DNA from: Patescibacteria group bacterium
GTDB lineage: Bacteria > Patescibacteriota > Patescibacteriia > Patescibacteriales > UBA12465
Assembly (NCBI GenBank): GCA_027858435.1
Contig: JAQICS010000035.1
Span: 1-32,161, forward strand
Direction of reading: 5' to 3'
DNA: 32,161 nucleotides
The translations under genes were made by a program, and so were the position numbers. This document shows, in pieces, positions 8,136 through 20,864 of this stretch; position 1 is the first letter of the stretch, and the number at the start of each line of letters is the position of its first letter. The notes below the pieces were generated by a model, which did no database searches, was not told where the DNA came from, and worked only from the letters and a program-made list of their open reading frames with translations.

Positions 8136-8699
8136 ATGAAAAAATTTCTTTTATTTATCTGGGAGTTAGTAAAAGTGGCCGCAATTTCTGCAGCTATTAT
8201 TATCCCTGTTAGATATTACTTAATACAACCCTTTTATGTAAAAGGAGCTTCAATGGAGCCCAATTTTCATGATAGTGAATATTTAATTGTTGATGAGATA
8301 AGTTATCGTTTTAATGAACCAAATCGTGGCCAAGTAATTGTTTTTAGATACCCTAAAAATCCTCAAGAATATTTTATTAAAAGAATAATTGGTTTACCAG
8401 GAGAAGAGTTACAAATTAAAGATGGAGATGTTGTTGTATATAATGAAAATAATCCTCAAGGTTTAGTGTTAAACGAAACTTACTTGAAAACAGACTTAGA
8501 AACATTTAATTCAGATACAAAAAAAATAAAACTTGCTGATGATGAATATTTTGTTTTAGGGGATAATAGAAATGCTTCAAAAGACTCAAGAAGTTTTGGA
8601 GTACTTGATAATAACTTTATCATTGGAAAAGTATTATTACGTGGCTGGCCACTAGATAATATAACAGTTTTTAATAAGGAATTTTGGCCTATATATTAA
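8136..8699 (+). CDS. lepB: signal peptidase I
   Basis: N-terminal TM, 'GASMEPNFHDSEYLIVDE' (catalytic Ser), 'RGQVIVFRYPKNPQEYFIKRIIGLPGE' (catalytic Lys), 'YFVLGDNRNASKDSRSFG'. Confidence 0.96.
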   Translation: MKKFLLFIWELVKVAAISAAIIIPVRYYLIQPFYVKGASMEPNFHDSEYLIVDEISYRFNEPNRGQVIVFRYPKNPQEYFIKRIIGLPGEELQIKDGDVVVYNENNPQGLVLNETYLKTDLETFNSDTKKIKLADDEYFVLGDNRNASKDSRSFGVLDNNFIIGKVLLRGWPLDNITVFNKEFWPIY

Positions 8700-8707
8700 C
8701 AAATATT

Positions 8708-10108
8708 ATGAATAATCAAAAAAGTAAAACTAAAAAAACAAAAAACACAAATAATTCAAGCTCTTCAAATAAAGCAGTTAAGAAGAGTCATAAGCGACCA
8801 GGAAGAGTGATGGGCGTTAAGGATTACGCTGGCTTTGAAGGTGAATCATTTTCTTTATTAAAAGAAAAGATTAATCAGTTCGCTAATTATTATAGTTTAA
8901 AAAACATTGAAGTTCCGATTATTGAAAGCTATGATTTATATAAAAAATCAAAGAGAGTTGAAAATGATAAGGAGCTATACTTTGTTGAAGGTGAAAAAGG
9001 TGAAAAACTAGTTTTAAGACCTGAGATTACTCAAGGAGTAATTAGATCACTTTTAGAAAATAATTTATTTGAAAATTCAAATTCACATAGACTATTTTCA
9101 TTAGGTAAAGTTTTCAGAAAAGAAAAACTTAAATCTGGTCACTACAGAGAATTTACGCAAGCTAATTTTGAAATTATTGGTGATAGAAAACCTATTACCG
9201 AAGCCCTATTTCTAGCAGCCGTATCCGAGTTATATAAAGACTTAGGTATTAATATTCAAATACAAATAAACTGTTTAGGAGATCATACTTGTCGTAAGGA
9301 ATATTCCTCTAAGTTATCAGCATTTTTTAAAGAGAGAGGAAAAAAATCTAAAATGTGTACATGTTGTAAAAATGTTTTAGCTAAAAACCCTATCGCCCTA
9401 CTAGATTGCACTGAAGAATCTTGCCAATCAATTAGAGAAGAGGCTCCACAAATATTGGATTCCTTATCACCTGATAGTCGTGAATATTTCACTAAAACTC
9501 TAGAGTATTTAGATGAAATGAATGTAAACTACAATCTTTCTCCATATTTAGTTAGAGGCTTTAGCTATTACACCGACACTGTTTATGAATTTTGGTCAGT
9601 AAATGAAGATGGAGAAATTAATGGTAAAAATTCTTTAGCCGCTGGTGGAAGATATGATAACTATATTGAAAGTTTTGATGGAGAAGAAGTCCCAGCTTTT
9701 GGTTTAGCTATTGGACTAGAGAGAACATTAGCTAGAATTAAAGATAAGTCCCTCTTGAATTTTAAAAAAGAAGATGATATTATATTTATCGCCCAACTTG
9801 GAGATCAAGCAAGGATAAAATGTTTAAAATTATTCAAAAATTTACAAGCAGAAGGATTTAAAGTGAGACAGTCTTTAACATCTGATAGTTTAAAAATTCA
9901 ATTGGAAGAAGCTGCTAAAATGAAAGCTAAAACAAGTTTAATTTTAGGAAAAAAAGAGATTATGGATGGCACAGTTCTTCTAAGAGATATGGATTCTGGG
10001 GCCCAAGAAACTGTTATATTTAAAAAAGTAAAAGAAAGGTTAATTAAGATGAATAAAATAACAGAAAAAAAAGTTAATATTAGAAAGGAGGCTGGGATTT
10101 ATGGCTGA
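8708..10108 (+). CDS. hisS: histidyl-tRNA synthetase
   Basis: Class II motif 2 'GKVFRKEKLKSGHYREFTQANFEIIG', HisA 'LVRGFSYYTDTVYEF', motif 3 'AAGGRYDNYI...AFGLAIGLERTLARI'. ATG at 8708 preferred over the TTG at 8684. Basic/Ser-Asn-rich N-terminal extension. Confidence 0.93.
   Translation: MNNQKSKTKKTKNTNNSSSSNKAVKKSHKRPGRVMGVKDYAGFEGESFSLLKEKINQFANYYSLKNIEVPIIESYDLYKKSKRVENDKELYFVEGEKGEKLVLRPEITQGVIRSLLENNLFENSNSHRLFSLGKVFRKEKLKSGHYREFTQANFEIIGDRKPITEALFLAAVSELYKDLGINIQIQINCLGDHTCRKEYSSKLSAFFKERGKKSKMCTCCKNVLAKNPIALLDCTEESCQSIREEAPQILDSLSPDSREYFTKTLEYLDEMNVNYNLSPYLVRGFSYYTDTVYEFWSVNEDGEINGKNSLAAGGRYDNYIESFDGEEVPAFGLAIGLERTLARIKDKSLLNFKKEDDIIFIAQLGDQARIKCLKLFKNLQAEGFKVRQSLTSDSLKIQLEEAAKMKAKTSLILGKKEIMDGTVLLRDMDSGAQETVIFKKVKERLIKMNKITEKKVNIRKEAGIYG
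10084..10091 (+). promoter_or_regulatory. strong Shine-Dalgarno sequence (AAAGGAGG) for rpsU, inside the hisS coding sequence
   Basis: AAAGGAGG ends 9 nt before the rpsU ATG at 10101. Confidence 0.85.
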
Positions 10109-10337
10109 TTTTAAAAGAAAACCGGGTGAAAGTTTTGAAGGTTTTTTACGTAAGTTTAAAAGAGGATTAAAGAACAGTAAAAAGCTGAATAAAGCTAGAT
10201 CTAAAAAACATTTAGAATCTAAAACCACCAAACAAAAGCAAAAGAAAAAAGCTTTAATTGGTTTAGAACTACAGAAGAAAAATGAGTATTTACGTAAAAT
10301 TGGAAAAATGCCTGAGAGTAACGGCAGACGTAGATAA
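10101..10337 (+). CDS. rpsU: small ribosomal subunit protein bS21
   Basis: 78-aa basic protein; 'ESFEGFLRKFKRGLKNSKKLNKARSKKHLESKTTKQKQKKKAL' matches the S21 pattern. Start overlaps the hisS end by 8 nt. Confidence 0.88.
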   Translation: MADFKRKPGESFEGFLRKFKRGLKNSKKLNKARSKKHLESKTTKQKQKKKALIGLELQKKNEYLRKIGKMPESNGRRR

Positions 10338-10351
10338 ACAAAAACAAAAAT

Positions 10352-10388
10352 AAAAAACATCATTACTGCAAAGCAATGATGTTTTTTT
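10352..10388. terminator. bidirectional intrinsic terminator between rpsU and relA
   Basis: AAAAAACATCATT - loop - AATGATGTTTTTTT hairpin between convergent genes, with an A-tract/T-tract on each side. Confidence 0.85.
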
Positions 10389-11968: not shown

Positions 11969-14719
11969 ATGAAAGGAAAAATAAAATTTTTAGTCTTGTT
12001 TTTTGGTATATTAGCTTTCTTCTTTATAGCTAATACTTCATTAGCGCAGACAAATCAAACAAATGACTACGGAGTTCAAAAGGTGGGAGAACAATTAGAT
12101 GGAAGATTAGGTGAAACTCAAGATGTTAGAGTTACTGTGGTGCGCTTTATTCAACTAGCTCTAAGTTTCTTGGGTATAATTGCAGTTATTATTATTCTTT
12201 ATGCTGGTTTTCTCTGGATGACATCAGGTGGTAATGAGGAAAAAATAGCTCGAGCTAAAAAAATATTAATAAATGCAGTAATTGGTTTAGTAATTATTTT
12301 ATCAGCTTGGACAATAGCTACTTATTTAATTAATAGGATAAGTGGTATTACCGGTGAAGGCGGCGGCAGTGGATTGGTTTATGACACACCACCAACTGGT
12401 TTTTATAACCCAGGTGCAGGAGCAATTGGAGTTTGCTCAGTACAAAGTACTTATCCAGAACATAAACAAAAAGATGTAGCTAGAAATTCTTCAATAATGA
12501 TTATGTTTAAAGAGGAAGTTGATTTAAACTCTATTTGTATAGATAATGCTGGTACAAGTTGTGCTTGTGATAATGATGTATGTAATAAATTAAATCCTGA
12601 GGTAATCAAAATATATAAGACCGATTTTGGTGATGCTTGTGGTAGTGGTACTTGCCCAAATAATGATGCCAACACAAATGTTACTGATGTGTTAGTATCT
12701 GTTCCAAGTAGTAATAAAACTTTAGTATTAAAACCATTAAATAATCTTGGTTCAAGTGATGGATATACTCCCTATACAGTTAATTTTAGTGAAAGAATTA
12801 AAAAACTAGATGGAGATTCTATTTTTAGAGGTTGTTCTAGTAATTACTTAGAAATAAACTTTACCGTTAGCAATGTCTTAGATTTGAGTCCTCCTCAAAT
12901 AATTGATGGAGGAGTTTTTCCACCACCAGATAATGAAAAAGATTATGTTGGTGAAGATAATCCTGCTCAAGCAGCTAGTGCGGAAATAAAAGTAAATTCT
13001 TGTCCACAAAAATATAATTCAGCTTCAATTATTTCTGTTAAAGATGGAGAGGGTCAAAGTGAAAACTTTGAAGTAAATATTTCTGATTACAGTGGAGAAA
13101 TAGATAAGTTTGAAATTTCTGTTCCTACTGATAGTGAAAATAAAGCCCAATTATTTAACGGAAACACTGGCGCTTTATTAGGAGTTACAGATTTTGTAAA
13201 CAATGAGGCATATTTTAATGATTTTGATTTAACTCTTACAGTAGATGAACATCCAGAAGGAAGTTTTTGGGAGATAGAAATAATGACAGAAAAATTAGCA
13301 GATAGTTTAAGAATTAACTCATCTGTTTATATATTTTATGATTCAAGTGTTAATAATAAAATAGAAGTGGTTGAGAATTGTAATTCAAATTCTAATGAAG
13401 ATTTAGCTACTCAAGCTACAAAGATAAAAGCGATAATTAGTGGCAACTCGAGTATTGAAATAATGGAATCAGAAGATTCTAGTTTAATATCTCTTGAAGC
13501 TAAAGTAGCTGGTAGTTCTGGAAATAATATTGCTCTTGAATTTGAAGGAAGTGAAGCGATAAGTGTAACCCCATTTTCAGGAGGCGTAGATAGTGATAGT
13601 ACAAGTCAAATAAATAAAAAAGAAGATAAACCAAGAAACTCAGCTCTACAAATTAATTTTAATGAAGCTATTAATCCCGTAACAGTTTCTGGGACTGCTG
13701 AGGAAGTTTCAAAGGCTATTAAGCTTGTTAATTATAATTCCCAAGCTGGTGGAAGCAATGATCAGTGTAGTGCTAATTCTGATTGCTTGTCATATAAATG
13801 TGAAAATTCTAGATGCATTGGTGATTTTGTAAATGGAAGCTATACTCTTTCAAGTGATTATGAAACAGTTGAATTTGTTTCTGATAATGAATGTGGTGTA
13901 AATGGTTGTGGGGAAGTTATATATTGTCTTCCAGCAAATAGTCATTTAAAGGTGGAAATAAATGCCGCTAATTTAAAAGAGTGTAGCAATGATAATAATT
14001 GTGCTGCTTTAAGTCCGTATACTTCTTGTACGACAAACGAGCTCAATTACAATACTTGTCAGGATGATGAAGGTAATAACTATCCATCAGCTAATTTAAC
14101 TAATCTTGATGGGGTAGTTGACGCTGCTATTAATTCTTTAGATGGTAATAGAAATTTATACAGTGATGGACCGGTAAATTTTTATAATCAAAATAATGCA
14201 AATATTGAAGACGGTGATAGTTATAGTTATTCTTTCTTTATCACAAATGATATTAAATTAGATCCTCCTAAAATTATTTCAATTAGTCCAAGTCAAGGAG
14301 GAGAAGGGGTGAAGCCAAGTAAAAATATTGATATTAGATTTAATTCTTTAATATTAAATAACACACTGCGAAGCGGAGATGTTGACATAGAAAGTGGAGA
14401 TAATATTTTTAATCATAAATATATTAATCTAAAAAGTGGGTCACCAGCTGCTTTTGGTTTTTGGATTAGATCAGAAAATATTGACACTGAGCCAATGGAC
14501 GGGGAACCTGATTTGTCAATTGCATCAATTAACCATACTCCTCTACCTGAATCAATGACTTTCTATAGCCAAGTTGGCTCAGGTGTTAAAGATATATATC
14601 AGAATTGCTACAAACCTGCCGTTGGGCCAGGATGTAGTCAAATTGATGCGTCTTGTTGTTTCGGTAATAATACTAATGTACTAGATCTAGATCAGGATGG
14701 TAATTGTATAATAGAGTAA
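11969..14719 (+). CDS. surface protein: signal peptide + type IV secretion pilin-like two-TM anchor + large ectodomain with Ig-like (Big_5-type) segments and a cysteine-rich module
   Basis: 'LAQTNQ' signal-like end; 'VTVVRFIQLALSFLGIIAVIIILYAGFLWMTSGGNEEKIARAKKILINAVIGLVIILSAWTIATYLI'; Big_5-like 'YPEHKQKDVARNSSIMIMFKEEVD' and 'ISPSQGGEGVKPSKNIDIRFNSLI'; 'CSANSDCLSYKCENSRC'. Confidence 0.85.
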   Translation: MKGKIKFLVLFFGILAFFFIANTSLAQTNQTNDYGVQKVGEQLDGRLGETQDVRVTVVRFIQLALSFLGIIAVIIILYAGFLWMTSGGNEEKIARAKKILINAVIGLVIILSAWTIATYLINRISGITGEGGGSGLVYDTPPTGFYNPGAGAIGVCSVQSTYPEHKQKDVARNSSIMIMFKEEVDLNSICIDNAGTSCACDNDVCNKLNPEVIKIYKTDFGDACGSGTCPNNDANTNVTDVLVSVPSSNKTLVLKPLNNLGSSDGYTPYTVNFSERIKKLDGDSIFRGCSSNYLEINFTVSNVLDLSPPQIIDGGVFPPPDNEKDYVGEDNPAQAASAEIKVNSCPQKYNSASIISVKDGEGQSENFEVNISDYSGEIDKFEISVPTDSENKAQLFNGNTGALLGVTDFVNNEAYFNDFDLTLTVDEHPEGSFWEIEIMTEKLADSLRINSSVYIFYDSSVNNKIEVVENCNSNSNEDLATQATKIKAIISGNSSIEIMESEDSSLISLEAKVAGSSGNNIALEFEGSEAISVTPFSGGVDSDSTSQINKKEDKPRNSALQINFNEAINPVTVSGTAEEVSKAIKLVNYNSQAGGSNDQCSANSDCLSYKCENSRCIGDFVNGSYTLSSDYETVEFVSDNECGVNGCGEVIYCLPANSHLKVEINAANLKECSNDNNCAALSPYTSCTTNELNYNTCQDDEGNNYPSANLTNLDGVVDAAINSLDGNRNLYSDGPVNFYNQNNANIEDGDSYSYSFFITNDIKLDPPKIISISPSQGGEGVKPSKNIDIRFNSLILNNTLRSGDVDIESGDNIFNHKYINLKSGSPAAFGFWIRSENIDTEPMDGEPDLSIASINHTPLPESMTFYSQVGSGVKDIYQNCYKPAVGPGCSQIDASCCFGNNTNVLDLDQDGNCIIE

Positions 14720-14756: not shown

Positions 14757-17700
14757 ATGATAAAAAGAAAACAAATTTTTAAATATTTAGGCTTTTTTCT
14801 AATTTTTGTTGGAATTTTAGCTTTTCGTTTTGTTCTAGCACAAAACTATGGTGTTGATGAAGTTGGTACTCAACTGGGAGGAAGTTTAGGAGAAACCAAC
14901 ACTGACCCTAGAGCACTGGCAACCAGGATAATTAATATTTCTTTGGGATTTTTAGGAATAATAGCTTTGATTATTATTCTATACGCTGGTTTTTTATGGA
15001 TGACTTCAGGTGGCAATGAAGAAAAAATTGCTAAAGCTCGTAAAACTTTAATTGCTGGAGTTATTGGTTTAGTTATTATTCTTTCTTCTTGGGGCTTAGC
15101 TTCTTGGTTGATAAAAACTATAAGTGATACCACAAACGGAACTGGTGGTGATATAACCTATGAAGATGGTGACTCTCGTTCTTGTGGTTGTGTTGGATAT
15201 CAGTTATTTAATAATGGTTCCTGGGGCTCATGTCTTGGTGAAGGAGATTGTAGCGGTCCTGGCGGAGGTTTACCAGAAAGCTGTGATGCAAATGGGCTTG
15301 TTTCTGGTTGTCAGGTCGACAATGATATTTGTGGTGCTAGTGCATATTGTAATGATGAATGTGTTTGTGAGACTTTAGGTGATTCAGGTGATTCTTGTAA
15401 TTTAAGTGGTGAAGAAGGTGTTTGTCAGGCTAGTGATGACTTATGTGGTCAGTATTTAACTTGTAATCCTGATTCTTGTGTTTGTGAAGGATCTCCTGTC
15501 ATTACAGGAATAAGTCCAGTTGGGGGATTTTGTCAAAATGAGCAAAATAAAAGTTGTCAGGATGATAGTGATTGTGAAGACGTATGTAATTTAACTGCCC
15601 CAAATGGAGCACCAAGCAATTTCTTAACTATTAGTGGTCAAAATTTTGGTGAATATGATCCAGAATTAAGTAGGGTTATTTTTGTCGGAAACAATAATTT
15701 AAAAGAAGGAGTATTACCGGATACTATAAACCCAAACTGTATTAGTTTCTGGAGAAATGATCAAATAATTATTGCAATTCCTGAAGGTGCTGGTACTGGT
15801 CCAATTAAAATAATTGATTATCAAGATAAATCAGATCAAACTAATGATGAATATGGACCAATAATTCCTGATTTTAGATCAAATAATATAGTTAGACCGG
15901 GATTATGTGAAATAGATCCAGTTAGTGGAAAATTAAGTGCTGAAATTTCATACTCAGGTGTTAATTTATACAATGGTAGAGCATATTTTGGAAATTATAA
16001 TAGTAATGTAAAAGCTCTATCATCTGATTTTGAAAATAACGGCTTAACTGGTAAATCAGTAATACCTAACATTGAAGCTGGTGAATCTGGTAGTTTTGTA
16101 AAGGCTAGTATAAGTGGTAATGAAGAAAATAGTAATTACCTTACTTTTATAAAAGAAAGAGAGGAAAATGAGGGTTCTTTTATTTCCTACTTTAAACCTT
16201 TAGATGGAAATGCTGGTCAATACGTTACCATTTATGGATCTGGTTTTGGTAGAACAAAAGGGGCTAAATCAGTATATTTTGGTGAAACTGAGGCTTCATA
16301 TGATTTTCCTGAAGTTTGTTTAAATTCTGTTTGGAGTGAAGATGAAATAACAGTTAAAGTTCCGGCTGGATTAGAGGACGATGATTATATAATTAGAGTA
16401 GAATTAGACGAGACTAGTATTAGTACTGAAGAATTAAATCCAGATTCTTTTGAATTTGATAAAAATAAAGATTTAAAAACAAGTTTGTGTAAAATTGATC
16501 CAGAAAGAGGAACTATTAACACTGAAGTTTCACTATGGGGGGAATATTTTGGAGATAAAGATGCTGAGGTCCTAGTCAGTTTTAATGGTAGTGCTGATTA
16601 TATAAGTGAAAAAGTTGAAAAAGATGGAAGAGCTGACTTGCTTCAAACTTCAGTTCCAGAAGGTGCTATAACAGGACCCGTTAAAGTTAAAAAAAATAAT
16701 GAATATGGAAATGAATTAAATTTTACAGTTGGTAAATGTAGTAGTAATTCAGATTGTGGAGGGCAGTTTTGTTGTCCAGAAGGAACATATAAAGAAGGAT
16801 CTTGTGTAAGTAATTTTGGTGGTTGTTATGTTGATGTTCCAAGTTCAGTTTATGAATGGAGTTTTAGTACAACATTTTCTGAAACAATACCCGATGCAGA
16901 TAGTTGTGCAGGCTTAGCTCAAGCCACAGGTTTTTGTAGTACTGGTATGTGTCCTAATGTTCCAGGTATGTGTTCACCTTATTCTGGTGGAGAAAAAGTT
17001 TATGGAGAAGATTGTAGTTACGATTGTACTAAGGTTATTGGTTGTCGTTTGGGTGAAAAAGACTGTTCATATAATGTAAACTTAGATAAATGTTTACAAA
17101 TATTAGAAGGTGATGAAAGTAATAATTGTAATTTAGAGAAAGATGTTGAATATGAATTTAACGGTGAAACAATAAATACAACTGCAACTTGTAATAATAA
17201 TGGAAACTGGGAGATAAATGTTTCAACTACTTGCCCAGAAAACTACGATAAAGGAATAGGGGATATTTGTTATAACCCTGAGTCCGAATGTAGAAATTGT
17301 GAAGATGGTCTTAGTTGTCAATTGGTAGGTGGTTCAGAGCGTTGTGTTTCTGAAAAACTTTGTGATGAAGGATCGGTGTGTGAATCAGAAAACGGTTTAT
17401 CCAATGGACAATGTGTTTCAATAACTAGTGCTAGTTGTGAATGTTGTTGCACAATTGGTAAAAGTGCTCGTGATTGTTGTAGTTTTCAAACTGAATCAGA
17501 AGTTACAGTTCAACTTGAATGTGGCGGAACTTGTGGTAGTGCAAGTGATGTTGATAATGGTTATGGAGTTTGTGGTGGTTGCGCTGCTGCTTCTGATTCA
17601 TCAGCTGAGCTAAGAGATGCGGCTTGTAGTTGTAGTGGTCATAGTGGCCAATATTGTGAAGTTAATGATGATGCTCCTGAAGGATATTGTACTGATTGCT

Positions 17701-20700
17701 CAAGTTTAAGCTCTGAAGCTTGTGTTGAACACGCTGATGTTTGTTGTCTAGATTCAAATGGAACAGAAGAAACTTCTGATGACATATGTCGTGGAGGAGT
17801 AGGGGATATAATTACAGATAATGAAAATAGTGGAGACTATGGCTATTGCGCATATTATGATTGTTCAGATGATAGTACCTGTGCTAGTAGTACTCCTTTA
17901 AAGGTGGGAGGTTTTCTTGACGTTAATAAATGTGAAACAGGGTGTGCAGTTGAAGATCCTTGTTCTGGTATTAATAACTACGAAGATTGTGTAAATCAAG
18001 CCACTGGTAATTGTTGTTTTGATAATGATAGTAACGAATGTAAATCAGGTGAAGCAATAGACAATAGTTCTGATAATGATGGTTATTGCGCTTATTATGA
18101 TTGCATGGAAAATGAAGATGCTTGTGATAGTAGTACACCTTCAAAAAATGGAGATTATCTTGGTTTAAATGAATGTGAAGATGCTTGTGAAGACCCTCAA
18201 ATTGGAGCTGATTTAGAATGTGTTAATACTACAAGCAAAATTGAAGCATGTAATACATCGTTGTGTGGTGGAAGTGGACTTTCGTGTTTAACTGATACTG
18301 GAGCTTTAGGGCCAGTTGGTGATAGCGATTGTGGCGTTTGTTGTTGTGATCCAAGTCAGGAAAATAATAATTCTGGAGTTGATGGAAACCTTATTTGTTT
18401 AGCTAATCAAGGTGCTTGCACAGGCGGTGATAGGGGTCTTTATTGTGGTTGTGAAAGCGATAGTCAATGCGGGAATATTGATGCTATTGGTTGTGGATTA
18501 GATACTTGTTGTCATGCTAGGCCAGAAATAGTTTCTACAAATCCAGAACATTTAGCAGATAATGTATGTAGAAACGCTAGTTTAAGAGTTCAATTTAATC
18601 AATTAATGAGTGCTGAATCTGTAACAGATAATGTTATATTAATTGAAGAAAAAATTAACGCAAATGAACCATGTGACAACGGAACATTTATTGCTAGCGC
18701 TAATTCAATTGATGGTGTATATGATGATAAAATAAATGTTTTTGCTAAAGTTTCAAATTTCTTTAAAAATACCTACCGAAAAGTAGCAAGTTTAATTTCT
18801 CCTTCGTTTAATAGAAGGGCTCTTGCTAGTCCACCCAGTGAGGATAATCTGTATTGTTTAGTTCCAGGTAATGCAAGTTTAGAAAATGATGAAAATACCA
18901 GCACTATTGTTTATAATTCAAATACCCTACTTGATGCTTCAACTAACTATTATTTAGTTATTAAAGGTGATGAAGTATTAGATAGTAATACTGGAGTTTT
19001 CAGCTTAGATGGAATTGGATTTAATGGAAGTGGATATGAAGGCAGTGAAGAAGAAAATATTAAATTTAATCAAGTTAGTTATAAAAATTCACATATTATT
19101 AAATTTTCAACTATTTCAGATCAAGAAACATCTGGTATTTGTTTAATTGATAGAATGGAATTAGAGCCAGTTAGTTATTTATTTAATACACATGATGATG
19201 CTCTTGACTCTGATGAGTTAGATGAGTATGGAGTAGATAGTTTTGATACGCAAGCTGATAGAGATAAAGTTTGGACAGCTAACGCTTATAGTGATAGTCA
19301 AGTGATTAGACCGGTAATTGGATATTATTGGGATTATAATTTTACCATTTCAAATGATGAGATAGTTAGTGGAGAAAAATTAGAAGATATGCCAGATAAT
19401 CAATACTTTGTAAGTGCTCAGGATGAAATAACTGATGGACACACCAAATTAAACGCAGTAATTGATATGAACCCTTACAGTGAAGATGGAGGATGTTCTT
19501 TTAGTTCTAGTTGTGCTGATAATAATAATTGTTGTAATGATTATTTAAAGGGAGACGGCTTTAGTGACATAAGTGATATTTATGTCTTTATCTGCAATAA
19601 TCCATGGCCTAAAAAAAGTGCTAGTGGACTTTGGTCACCATGGAAAGACACAGATGACAATTGTTCAGTAGGGGATACAAATTGTAATGATTTTAATTAC
19701 AGCTTCTATTACTGCCGTGATGCAGGAAAAGATGGAACCTTTGATGACCTGCCAGCAGTTTTAAATGATCCAGTAATTATTGGACAAAAGGATAATAATG
19801 ACAACTTAGTTTGTAGTTCAGATAGATCCGCTACTTGTGAAAGCGTAAATGATTCCTGTGGAGAAGATGCTAATAATGATGGTATTTCAGATGGTATTTG
19901 TATTTGGAACGTTTTAAAAGAATCATATTTCTTTAGAGAAGAACTTCCTTCATCAGGAGAAATAACAAGAGTAATTGATTTAAAAACTGGTGGAGCAATA
20001 AAAATAGAATGGCAATCAAACGTAGAGCAAGTTGCTTCTTATAAAATATATTATATTAAATCAGGAGATAGTAATATTTCCTTTAAAGAAGTGGGAACTG
20101 ATGTTTGCAATGAAATTGACTCAACATATAAATGTGAAGTTACTCTATCTGGACTTGAAAATGAAATAAATTATTCATTTAGAATCGGGGTTATATCTAC
20201 TGGAGGAGCAGAAAGTCAAGCGATAAATGAAAGAATTAAAATGCCAACAGACAAGGAGGAGCCACCTACACCAGTTGGCTTATCTGCAGAAGTTGAAGGT
20301 GATAGAGTAAAAATTAGCTGGGAGGAAAATGAAGATGACAATGACACTTATTTCTATCGTCTATATATGGGAACTACTTCTGGTATACCTGGTAAATCAT
20401 TTGATACAAGCAATAAAGACGATATTGAAGGAAATGAGTTAAATAGTTTATACATCTCAAAAGAAGAATTTTCCTCCAACATTAATTATCTAAGCTTATC
20501 AGCTTTTGATAGATATAATAATGAGAGTGAAAAAACAGACGAAGAAACAATTGACGTAAGACCAGCTACTCCAACAGACTTAAATGCAGAATTAGGTGAG
20601 GAGGGTAATAATATAAAAATAACTTGGACAGAAAATGATGAAAATGTTTATTTCTACCGTCTTTATTTAGGAAATATTTCTGGTCAATACACAAAATCGT

Positions 20701-20864
20701 TTGACACAGACTTTAAAATAGAAGGAGAGCCGTTAAATAGTTTAAATATTTCTAAAGATGAATTTTATACAGATACCAATTATCTAAGCTTAACAGCTTT
20801 TGATAAATTTGATTTCAAAAGTAATAAATCTGATGAAATAACATTTACTTTTGAAGAAGAATAA
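14757..20864 (+). CDS. giant (2035 aa) surface protein: pilin-like two-TM anchor, cysteine-rich modules, IPT/TIG-like, Big_5-like and C-terminal FN3-like domains
   Basis: 'ATRIINISLGFLGIIALIIILYAGFLWMTSGGNEEKIAKARKTLIAGVIGLVIILSSWGLASWLI'; TIG-like 'PLDGNAGQYVTIYGSGFGRTKGAKSVYFG'; Big_5-like 'RPEIVSTNPEHLADNVCRNASLRVQFNQLM'; tandem FN3-like C-terminus. Confidence 0.87.
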   Translation: MIKRKQIFKYLGFFLIFVGILAFRFVLAQNYGVDEVGTQLGGSLGETNTDPRALATRIINISLGFLGIIALIIILYAGFLWMTSGGNEEKIAKARKTLIAGVIGLVIILSSWGLASWLIKTISDTTNGTGGDITYEDGDSRSCGCVGYQLFNNGSWGSCLGEGDCSGPGGGLPESCDANGLVSGCQVDNDICGASAYCNDECVCETLGDSGDSCNLSGEEGVCQASDDLCGQYLTCNPDSCVCEGSPVITGISPVGGFCQNEQNKSCQDDSDCEDVCNLTAPNGAPSNFLTISGQNFGEYDPELSRVIFVGNNNLKEGVLPDTINPNCISFWRNDQIIIAIPEGAGTGPIKIIDYQDKSDQTNDEYGPIIPDFRSNNIVRPGLCEIDPVSGKLSAEISYSGVNLYNGRAYFGNYNSNVKALSSDFENNGLTGKSVIPNIEAGESGSFVKASISGNEENSNYLTFIKEREENEGSFISYFKPLDGNAGQYVTIYGSGFGRTKGAKSVYFGETEASYDFPEVCLNSVWSEDEITVKVPAGLEDDDYIIRVELDETSISTEELNPDSFEFDKNKDLKTSLCKIDPERGTINTEVSLWGEYFGDKDAEVLVSFNGSADYISEKVEKDGRADLLQTSVPEGAITGPVKVKKNNEYGNELNFTVGKCSSNSDCGGQFCCPEGTYKEGSCVSNFGGCYVDVPSSVYEWSFSTTFSETIPDADSCAGLAQATGFCSTGMCPNVPGMCSPYSGGEKVYGEDCSYDCTKVIGCRLGEKDCSYNVNLDKCLQILEGDESNNCNLEKDVEYEFNGETINTTATCNNNGNWEINVSTTCPENYDKGIGDICYNPESECRNCEDGLSCQLVGGSERCVSEKLCDEGSVCESENGLSNGQCVSITSASCECCCTIGKSARDCCSFQTESEVTVQLECGGTCGSASDVDNGYGVCGGCAAASDSSAELRDAACSCSGHSGQYCEVNDDAPEGYCTDCSSLSSEACVEHADVCCLDSNGTEETSDDICRGGVGDIITDNENSGDYGYCAYYDCSDDSTCASSTPLKVGGFLDVNKCETGCAVEDPCSGINNYEDCVNQATGNCCFDNDSNECKSGEAIDNSSDNDGYCAYYDCMENEDACDSSTPSKNGDYLGLNECEDACEDPQIGADLECVNTTSKIEACNTSLCGGSGLSCLTDTGALGPVGDSDCGVCCCDPSQENNNSGVDGNLICLANQGACTGGDRGLYCGCESDSQCGNIDAIGCGLDTCCHARPEIVSTNPEHLADNVCRNASLRVQFNQLMSAESVTDNVILIEEKINANEPCDNGTFIASANSIDGVYDDKINVFAKVSNFFKNTYRKVASLISPSFNRRALASPPSEDNLYCLVPGNASLENDENTSTIVYNSNTLLDASTNYYLVIKGDEVLDSNTGVFSLDGIGFNGSGYEGSEEENIKFNQVSYKNSHIIKFSTISDQETSGICLIDRMELEPVSYLFNTHDDALDSDELDEYGVDSFDTQADRDKVWTANAYSDSQVIRPVIGYYWDYNFTISNDEIVSGEKLEDMPDNQYFVSAQDEITDGHTKLNAVIDMNPYSEDGGCSFSSSCADNNNCCNDYLKGDGFSDISDIYVFICNNPWPKKSASGLWSPWKDTDDNCSVGDTNCNDFNYSFYYCRDAGKDGTFDDLPAVLNDPVIIGQKDNNDNLVCSSDRSATCESVNDSCGEDANNDGISDGICIWNVLKESYFFREELPSSGEITRVIDLKTGGAIKIEWQSNVEQVASYKIYYIKSGDSNISFKEVGTDVCNEIDSTYKCEVTLSGLENEINYSFRIGVISTGGAESQAINERIKMPTDKEEPPTPVGLSAEVEGDRVKISWEENEDDNDTYFYRLYMGTTSGIPGKSFDTSNKDDIEGNELNSLYISKEEFSSNINYLSLSAFDRYNNESEKTDEETIDVRPATPTDLNAELGEEGNNIKITWTENDENVYFYRLYLGNISGQYTKSFDTDFKIEGEPLNSLNISKDEFYTDTNYLSLTAFDKFDFKSNKSDEITFTFEEE
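17736..18195 (+). repeat. intragenic tandem cysteine-rich repeat (~80 aa / ~240 nt spacing, two copies)
   Basis: 'CCLDSN...DYGYCAYYDCSDDSTCASSTPLKVGGFLDVNKCETGC' and 'CCFDND...NDGYCAYYDCMENEDACDSSTPSKNGDYLGLNECEDAC'. Confidence 0.85.
20259..20861 (+). repeat. two tandem FN3-like repeats (~100 aa each)
   Basis: 'PPTPVGLSAEVEGDRVKISWEENEDDNDTYFYRLYMGTTSG...SLYISKEEFSSNINYLSLSAFDRYNNES' versus 'PATPTDLNAELGEEGNNIKITWTENDENVYFYRLYLGNISG...SLNISKDEFYTDTNYLSLTAFDKFDFKS'. Confidence 0.88.

Follow-up and report, generated by a model that had tools for sequence, protein, structure and literature searches.

In Flavobacterium, Tyr54 of the ribosomal protein bS21 stacks on A1534 of the 16S rRNA, redirects the 3′ tail and blocks the anti-Shine-Dalgarno (anti-SD) sequence. 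For the autoregulation of bS21 in Flavobacterium johnsoniae and the Bacteroidota, the work of Jha (2021) is said to stand beside that of McNutt (2023). The ribosomes of F. johnsoniae hide the 16S tail in a pocket formed by bS21, bS18 and bS6, and those without bS21 initiate faster on the rpsU mRNA (PMC9976891). This autoregulation by bS21-less ribosomes has been put forward as an unambiguous example of a specialised ribosome in bacteria, and descriptions of it are confined to Bacteroidota; the criteria of McNutt 2023 are a pairing of rpsU below −13 kcal/mol that is the strongest among ribosomal-protein genes (PMC9976891). In Escherichia coli, the C-terminus of bS21 adjoins the SD helix (PMC7550191), and bS21 was argued to hinder an extended SD helix (PMC13009471). 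Extended SD-aSD helices are widely used in Staphylococcus aureus, where about 84% of mRNAs have an SD (PMC13009471). Among the searchable papers, none was found that deals with rpsU or with the use of SDs in Patescibacteria.

The rpsU gene considered here lies on a contig of a Patescibacteria group bacterium (JAQICS010000035.1), the whole of which, 32,161 nucleotides, is called the window. An earlier note on this DNA had singled out rpsU as the only gene of the window with a strong SD and proposed a circuit like that of the Bacteroidota.

Pairing of the rpsU leader with the 16S rRNA tail

The source genome (916 kb, 70 contigs) is that of a Falkowbacteria-type Patescibacterium, its nearest named relatives being Candidatus Falkowbacteria MAGs. 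Its single-copy 16S gene ends with ACCUCCUUUCUA (GGATCACCTCCTTTCTAGGG in DNA), and the anti-SD is intact in this tail, as the proposal presupposed. The spacing of 9 nt between the SD core AAAGGAGG (10084–10091) and the rpsU ATG was confirmed, and the complement proved longer than noted. Downstream of TAGAAAGGAGG come C10092, TGG, ATTT and one further T before ATG 10101; the leader forms 11 consecutive pairs with the 16S tail, and three additional ones with C10092 looped out. The pairing energy to UCACCUCCUUUCUA is −18.7 kcal/mol, this and all other SD-16S energies being computed with ViennaRNA and not with free_scan. The SD was also correctly located inside the end of hisS: it lies in the hisS frame, and the hisS stop codon (10106–10108) leaves an overlap of 8 nt with rpsU. 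No RNA structure above chance was found in the rpsU leader (z = +1.0).

Table 1. Features of the rpsU region (window positions).
Feature	Position	Strand	Basis or remark
hisS, histidyl-tRNA synthetase	8684..10108	+	Start uncertain (TTG 8684 or ATG 8708); 3′ end holds the rpsU SD
Extended SD, distal part TAGAAAGGAGG	10081..10091	+	Fully complementary over 11 nt to the 16S 3′ tail CCUCCUUUCUA of this genome; sequence, 16S tail, duplex energy
Extra base C, predicted to be looped out, breaking the complement	10092..10092	+	Found in most relatives; base and position vary
Extended SD, start-proximal part UGG	10093..10095	+	Pairs with UCA of the 16S tail; duplex structure
rpsU, ribosomal protein bS21, 78 aa	10101..10337	+	PF01165 and alignment-profile match
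Terminator-like inverted repeat AAAAAACATCATT/AATGATGTTTTTT (13 bp, perfect) and T run	10352..10387	.	Between rpsU and the convergent relA/spoT; read from sequence

SD usage in the window and in the genome

All other gene starts of the window are without usable SD. The nearest values are −4.8 kcal/mol for the TTG start of hisS and −6.4 for gene 24450, the SD-like site of the latter being too far upstream of the start. Upstream regions were then scored against the genome's own 16S tail for 492 genes (minimum length 75 aa) in a 566-kb sample, made of stretches that cover 62% of the genome. Gene starts were called mechanically in this sample, and modest SDs at misplaced starts could escape. Only three of the 492 genes reach −13 kcal/mol, all three being below −18: a Lys/Ala-rich protein of 78 aa (−22.4), a stand-alone type IV secretion system (T4SS) pilin of 137 aa (−18.9) and rpsU (−18.7). 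The fourth-ranked gene is at −12.9. The rpsU SD is more than chance, since shuffling the upstream sequences leaves about 0.2 genes per 492 at −13 or lower.

The genome is otherwise SD-poor. At a threshold of −4, 59 SD-like sites were counted at gene starts versus 134 in a mock region farther upstream, which has a higher G+C content. Compared with shuffles of the same base composition, the excess is small (−7 or below in 4% of genes versus 2% of shuffles). Over the whole genome, the pattern AAGGAGG-before-ATG has 17 matches versus 19 for a reversed control, and few of them are at plausible gene starts. Three unrelated genes (L034:4839, L036:7138 and L022:7632) have an ordinary GGAGGACC SD and were perhaps acquired recently.

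Thirty ribosomal-protein and elongation-factor genes were located by homology to E. coli, six more that were sought being absent from the sample. Apart from rpsU, none has a strong SD, the best value being −6.4; tuf and fus have none, and rpsU has the strongest SD of the ribosomal-protein genes tested. The gene of bS18, rpsR, was considered as a second SD-bearing gene of the pocket and rejected, as 0/30 of the examined rpsR genes have an SD. The statement that only rpsU has a strong SD is true for the window and among these 30 genes. As a genome-wide claim it falls because of the extended SDs of the pilin and Lys/Ala-rich genes, even though equally strong SDs are few.

The extended SD and its extra base in relatives

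The rpsU element is present in 29/29 congeneric or confamilial genes of a first set and in most of 20 mainly order-level genes. When named MAGs and a phylum-wide draw are taken together, the rpsU SD is at or below −13 kcal/mol in 96/103 usable loci, which bears out the expected conservation. Among genes neighbouring rpsU in the same named loci, the proportion is 1/108, even with the best early start chosen. More distant members of the phylum reach −13 in 27/40 cases, many of them with a plain AAGGAGGTGA, and some relatives (e.g. L139, L174, L205) have no rpsU SD. In one member of the order (G049; rpsU of L139/L089), rpsU is without SD and the bulged motif precedes a 71-aa CxxC-type zinc-ribbon-like protein (L265).

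The complement in the rpsU leaders of relatives spans the full 16S tail, (C)TAGAAAGGAGGTGA; in most cases one extra base, and no more, lies within the GGAGG core or beside it. The commonest split form is TAGAAAGG-N-AGGTG; AGAAAG-N-GAGGTG and GGAG-N-GTG also occur, and the window has GGAGG-C-TG. With a simple alignment classifier, a single insertion was clearly the better description in 57/77 named rpsU loci and 11/26 phylum loci. In the named set, the inserted base is A in 25 cases, T in 14, C in 11 and G in 7. Of 18 occurrences of the exact bulged string AGAAAGGNAGGTG in 36 genomes, 17 are at rpsU. The extra base splits the helix into about 8 distal and 5–6 proximal base pairs in most relatives, and into 11 and 3 in the window. 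The 16S tails do not themselves hold an extra base, a possibility that was ruled out by their invariance: GGATCACCTCCTTTCTA is essentially the same among relatives. No earlier report of the extra base at rpsU was found in the literature within reach of the search.

Mapped onto a hisS tree (76 rows), the extra base persists through no fewer than 20 changes of identity and 13 changes of position; the tree is a quick one, and these counts are minima. As the insertion persists while base and position change, its presence, rather than its identity, appears to be under selection. It may instead have drifted from a contiguous 13-bp SD and be tolerated without any role, which would be compatible with every explanation of the SD itself. 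Even with the extra base, the predicted duplex remains very strong (about −17 to −20 kcal/mol), and between roughly a tenth and a fifth of the relatives have the contiguous version. Mismatch-free single insertions (60 related loci and the window) are nevertheless much commoner than single mismatches (9 cases), deletions being rare, and the same classifier found no single insertion in the pilin (0/30) or Lys/Ala-rich (0/9) genes of the same lineage. Roleless drift is judged unlikely.

Two explanations would tie the conserved string to hisS. The gene lies upstream of rpsU in 76/80 related loci, and it had been suggested that translation of hisS is coupled to the rpsU SD, which would reload terminating ribosomes onto rpsU. 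The adjacency and the 8-nt overlap in the window agree with such coupling. An in-frame position of the SD within hisS is limited to 20/74 loci, a minority that includes the near relatives of the window, and the hisS stop lies over 24 nt, and often over 50, upstream of rpsU in 48/74; the SD remains at or below −13 in 44 of these 48, which makes coupling a very improbable explanation. That the string is merely hisS coding sequence would fit the in-frame loci and the window. It is hardly credible, and was rejected as the cause, as the same string also appears in loci whose hisS stop lies far upstream, corresponds base by base to the 16S tail and admits all four bases at the extra position. Nor is the extra base itself due to hisS coding, since it is found in 33 of the 48 loci with hisS ending more than 24 nt upstream.

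Other genes with an extended SD

The stand-alone pilin (T4SS/TrbC-type, PF18895; G000:C3:4671-5081, i.e. L071:4671-5081) is preceded by the extended SD CTAGAAAGGTGGTGA, which is kept across the genus, the family and most of the order. In several relatives it reads AGAAAGG[T/G/A]GGTGA, with no inserted base. The small Lys/Ala-rich protein (G000:C17:15855, i.e. L037:15855) is histone-H1-like and matches no Pfam family; its extended SD is contiguous, as in several relatives (AGAAAGG[A/G]GGTGA). Such proteins with an extended SD were also seen at L237, L245, L247, L268, L271, L273, L276, L277, L283 and L285. Two very large genes of the window (11969–14719 and 14757–20864) start with a T4SS pilin/TrbC-type domain, recognized in the first by Pfam PF18895 and in both by likeness to the stand-alone pilin; both are without SD.

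The two further extended SDs support the main rival to a feedback, namely that the few genes whose small protein must be made in very large amounts (bS21, the pilin and the Lys/Ala-rich protein) keep the strongest SDs as a high-expression signal. Both are kept in relatives, and rpsU, being downstream of hisS, may need an independent and stronger initiation. This explanation leaves the extra base, found at rpsU only, unaccounted for, and the other ribosomal proteins, presumably made in similar amounts, have no SD, like tuf, fus and rpsR. It is a serious candidate, held with somewhat less than even confidence. It is also possible that all three genes respond to bS21-poor ribosomes.

The bS21 protein

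The match of the rpsU product to PF01165 (E = 9.5e-5, 22.5 bits) is under the curated cut-off of 27. Solved bS21 chains are recovered with its alignment profile (best E = 1.8e-7), and the structure model has three helices with a mean pLDDT of 83. By predicted fold and sequence the protein qualifies as a bS21. Comparison of positions with the F. johnsoniae chain 7jil_z revealed no counterpart of Tyr54, the window protein having Gly54 and Ile53. A viral origin of this type of bS21 was considered and dropped, no match to it being found among viral contigs. Many order-level bS21 (L093–L104, L108) end in a basic stretch and Trp (...EEPRRRW), reminiscent of the RLY terminus of E. coli bS21, which contacts the 30S head (PMC7550191).

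Discussion

The locus resembles the F. johnsoniae and Bacteroidota circuit in its SD-poor genome, its intact anti-SD and its conserved extended rpsU SD, which is below −13 kcal/mol and the strongest among ribosomal-protein genes. It differs in belonging to another phylum, in lacking Tyr54 and an SD at rpsR, and in the two further extended-SD genes; in Flavobacteriales rpsU is the only strong-SD gene, whereas here 3/492 genes are at or below −13. Moreover, 9–13 consecutive pairs are described in Bacteroidota; the window gene has 11, and the SD of most relatives is interrupted by one extra base. Because Tyr54 is absent, rpsR has no SD and strong SDs are not exclusive to rpsU, a shared mechanism could be proposed only as convergence. 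The circuit suggested by the earlier note is therefore retained as one that possibly works like that of the Bacteroidota, without being claimed to be the same.

As in the extended helices of S. aureus, pairing extends toward the start codon and bS21 is seen as an obstacle. Unlike the present genome, S. aureus is SD-rich and uses such helices widely, and no role of rpsU is reported there. An ordinary strong SD (AAGGAGGTGA), present at rpsU in distant Patescibacteria, pairs with the same anti-SD; unlike the rpsU element, it is shorter, contiguous and not limited to a few genes.

The best reading, given roughly even chances, is a Flavobacterium-like feedback of bS21 through the split SD. The rpsU SD can pair with practically the whole of the 16S 3′ tail, most other mRNAs being translated without SD. 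Bound to the 30S platform, bS21 may block or strain the start-proximal half of this pairing; subunits without bS21 would pair fully with the rpsU mRNA, and bS21 would be made until the subunits are replete, a feedback demonstrated by experiment in Flavobacterium. The extra base may further create two half-helices, the distal one anchoring the mRNA and the proximal one reporting whether the tail is free of bS21.

This feedback is favoured because rpsU stands at −18.7 with nothing beyond −6.4 among the 30 ribosomal and elongation-factor genes, and because its SD is conserved, strong SDs are almost absent from adjacent genes and the 16S tail is essentially invariant. It is also favoured because the single extra base is specific to rpsU and persists on the hisS tree. 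A survey of 22 genomes, each represented by one or more 20-kb stretches, argues likewise: the rpsU SD is at or below −13 in 10/10 genomes with SDs near chance level versus 3/12 SD-richer ones (Fisher p = 0.0005, uncorrected for kinship or G+C). The feedback is weakened because Tyr54 has no counterpart, because extended SDs also precede two other genes, one of which has a contiguous and stronger version, and because some relatives have no rpsU SD while distant members of the phylum often have the ordinary one.

A bolder and rather doubtful version is that Patescibacteria independently evolved a sensing of ribosome composition, in which the split rpsU SD, with its one looped-out base, would detect whether the 30S platform carries bS21, and ribosomes poor in bS21 would also selectively translate a small contiguous-SD regulon comprising the T4SS pilin and the Lys/Ala-rich protein. 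The status of bS21 could then be linked to pilin production in predicted episymbionts. The occurrence of the Bacteroidota signature in Patescibacteria, in the absence of the known sequestering residue, would imply more than one origin of bS21 autoregulation; how the sensing works could be tested through the looped-out base.

A C immediately 5′ of TAGAAAG precedes 24/33 rpsU genes outside the window's family and 14/16 pilin genes, and 0/30 rpsU genes of the window's family type. This C hints that the mature 16S tail would end in ...UUUCUAG.
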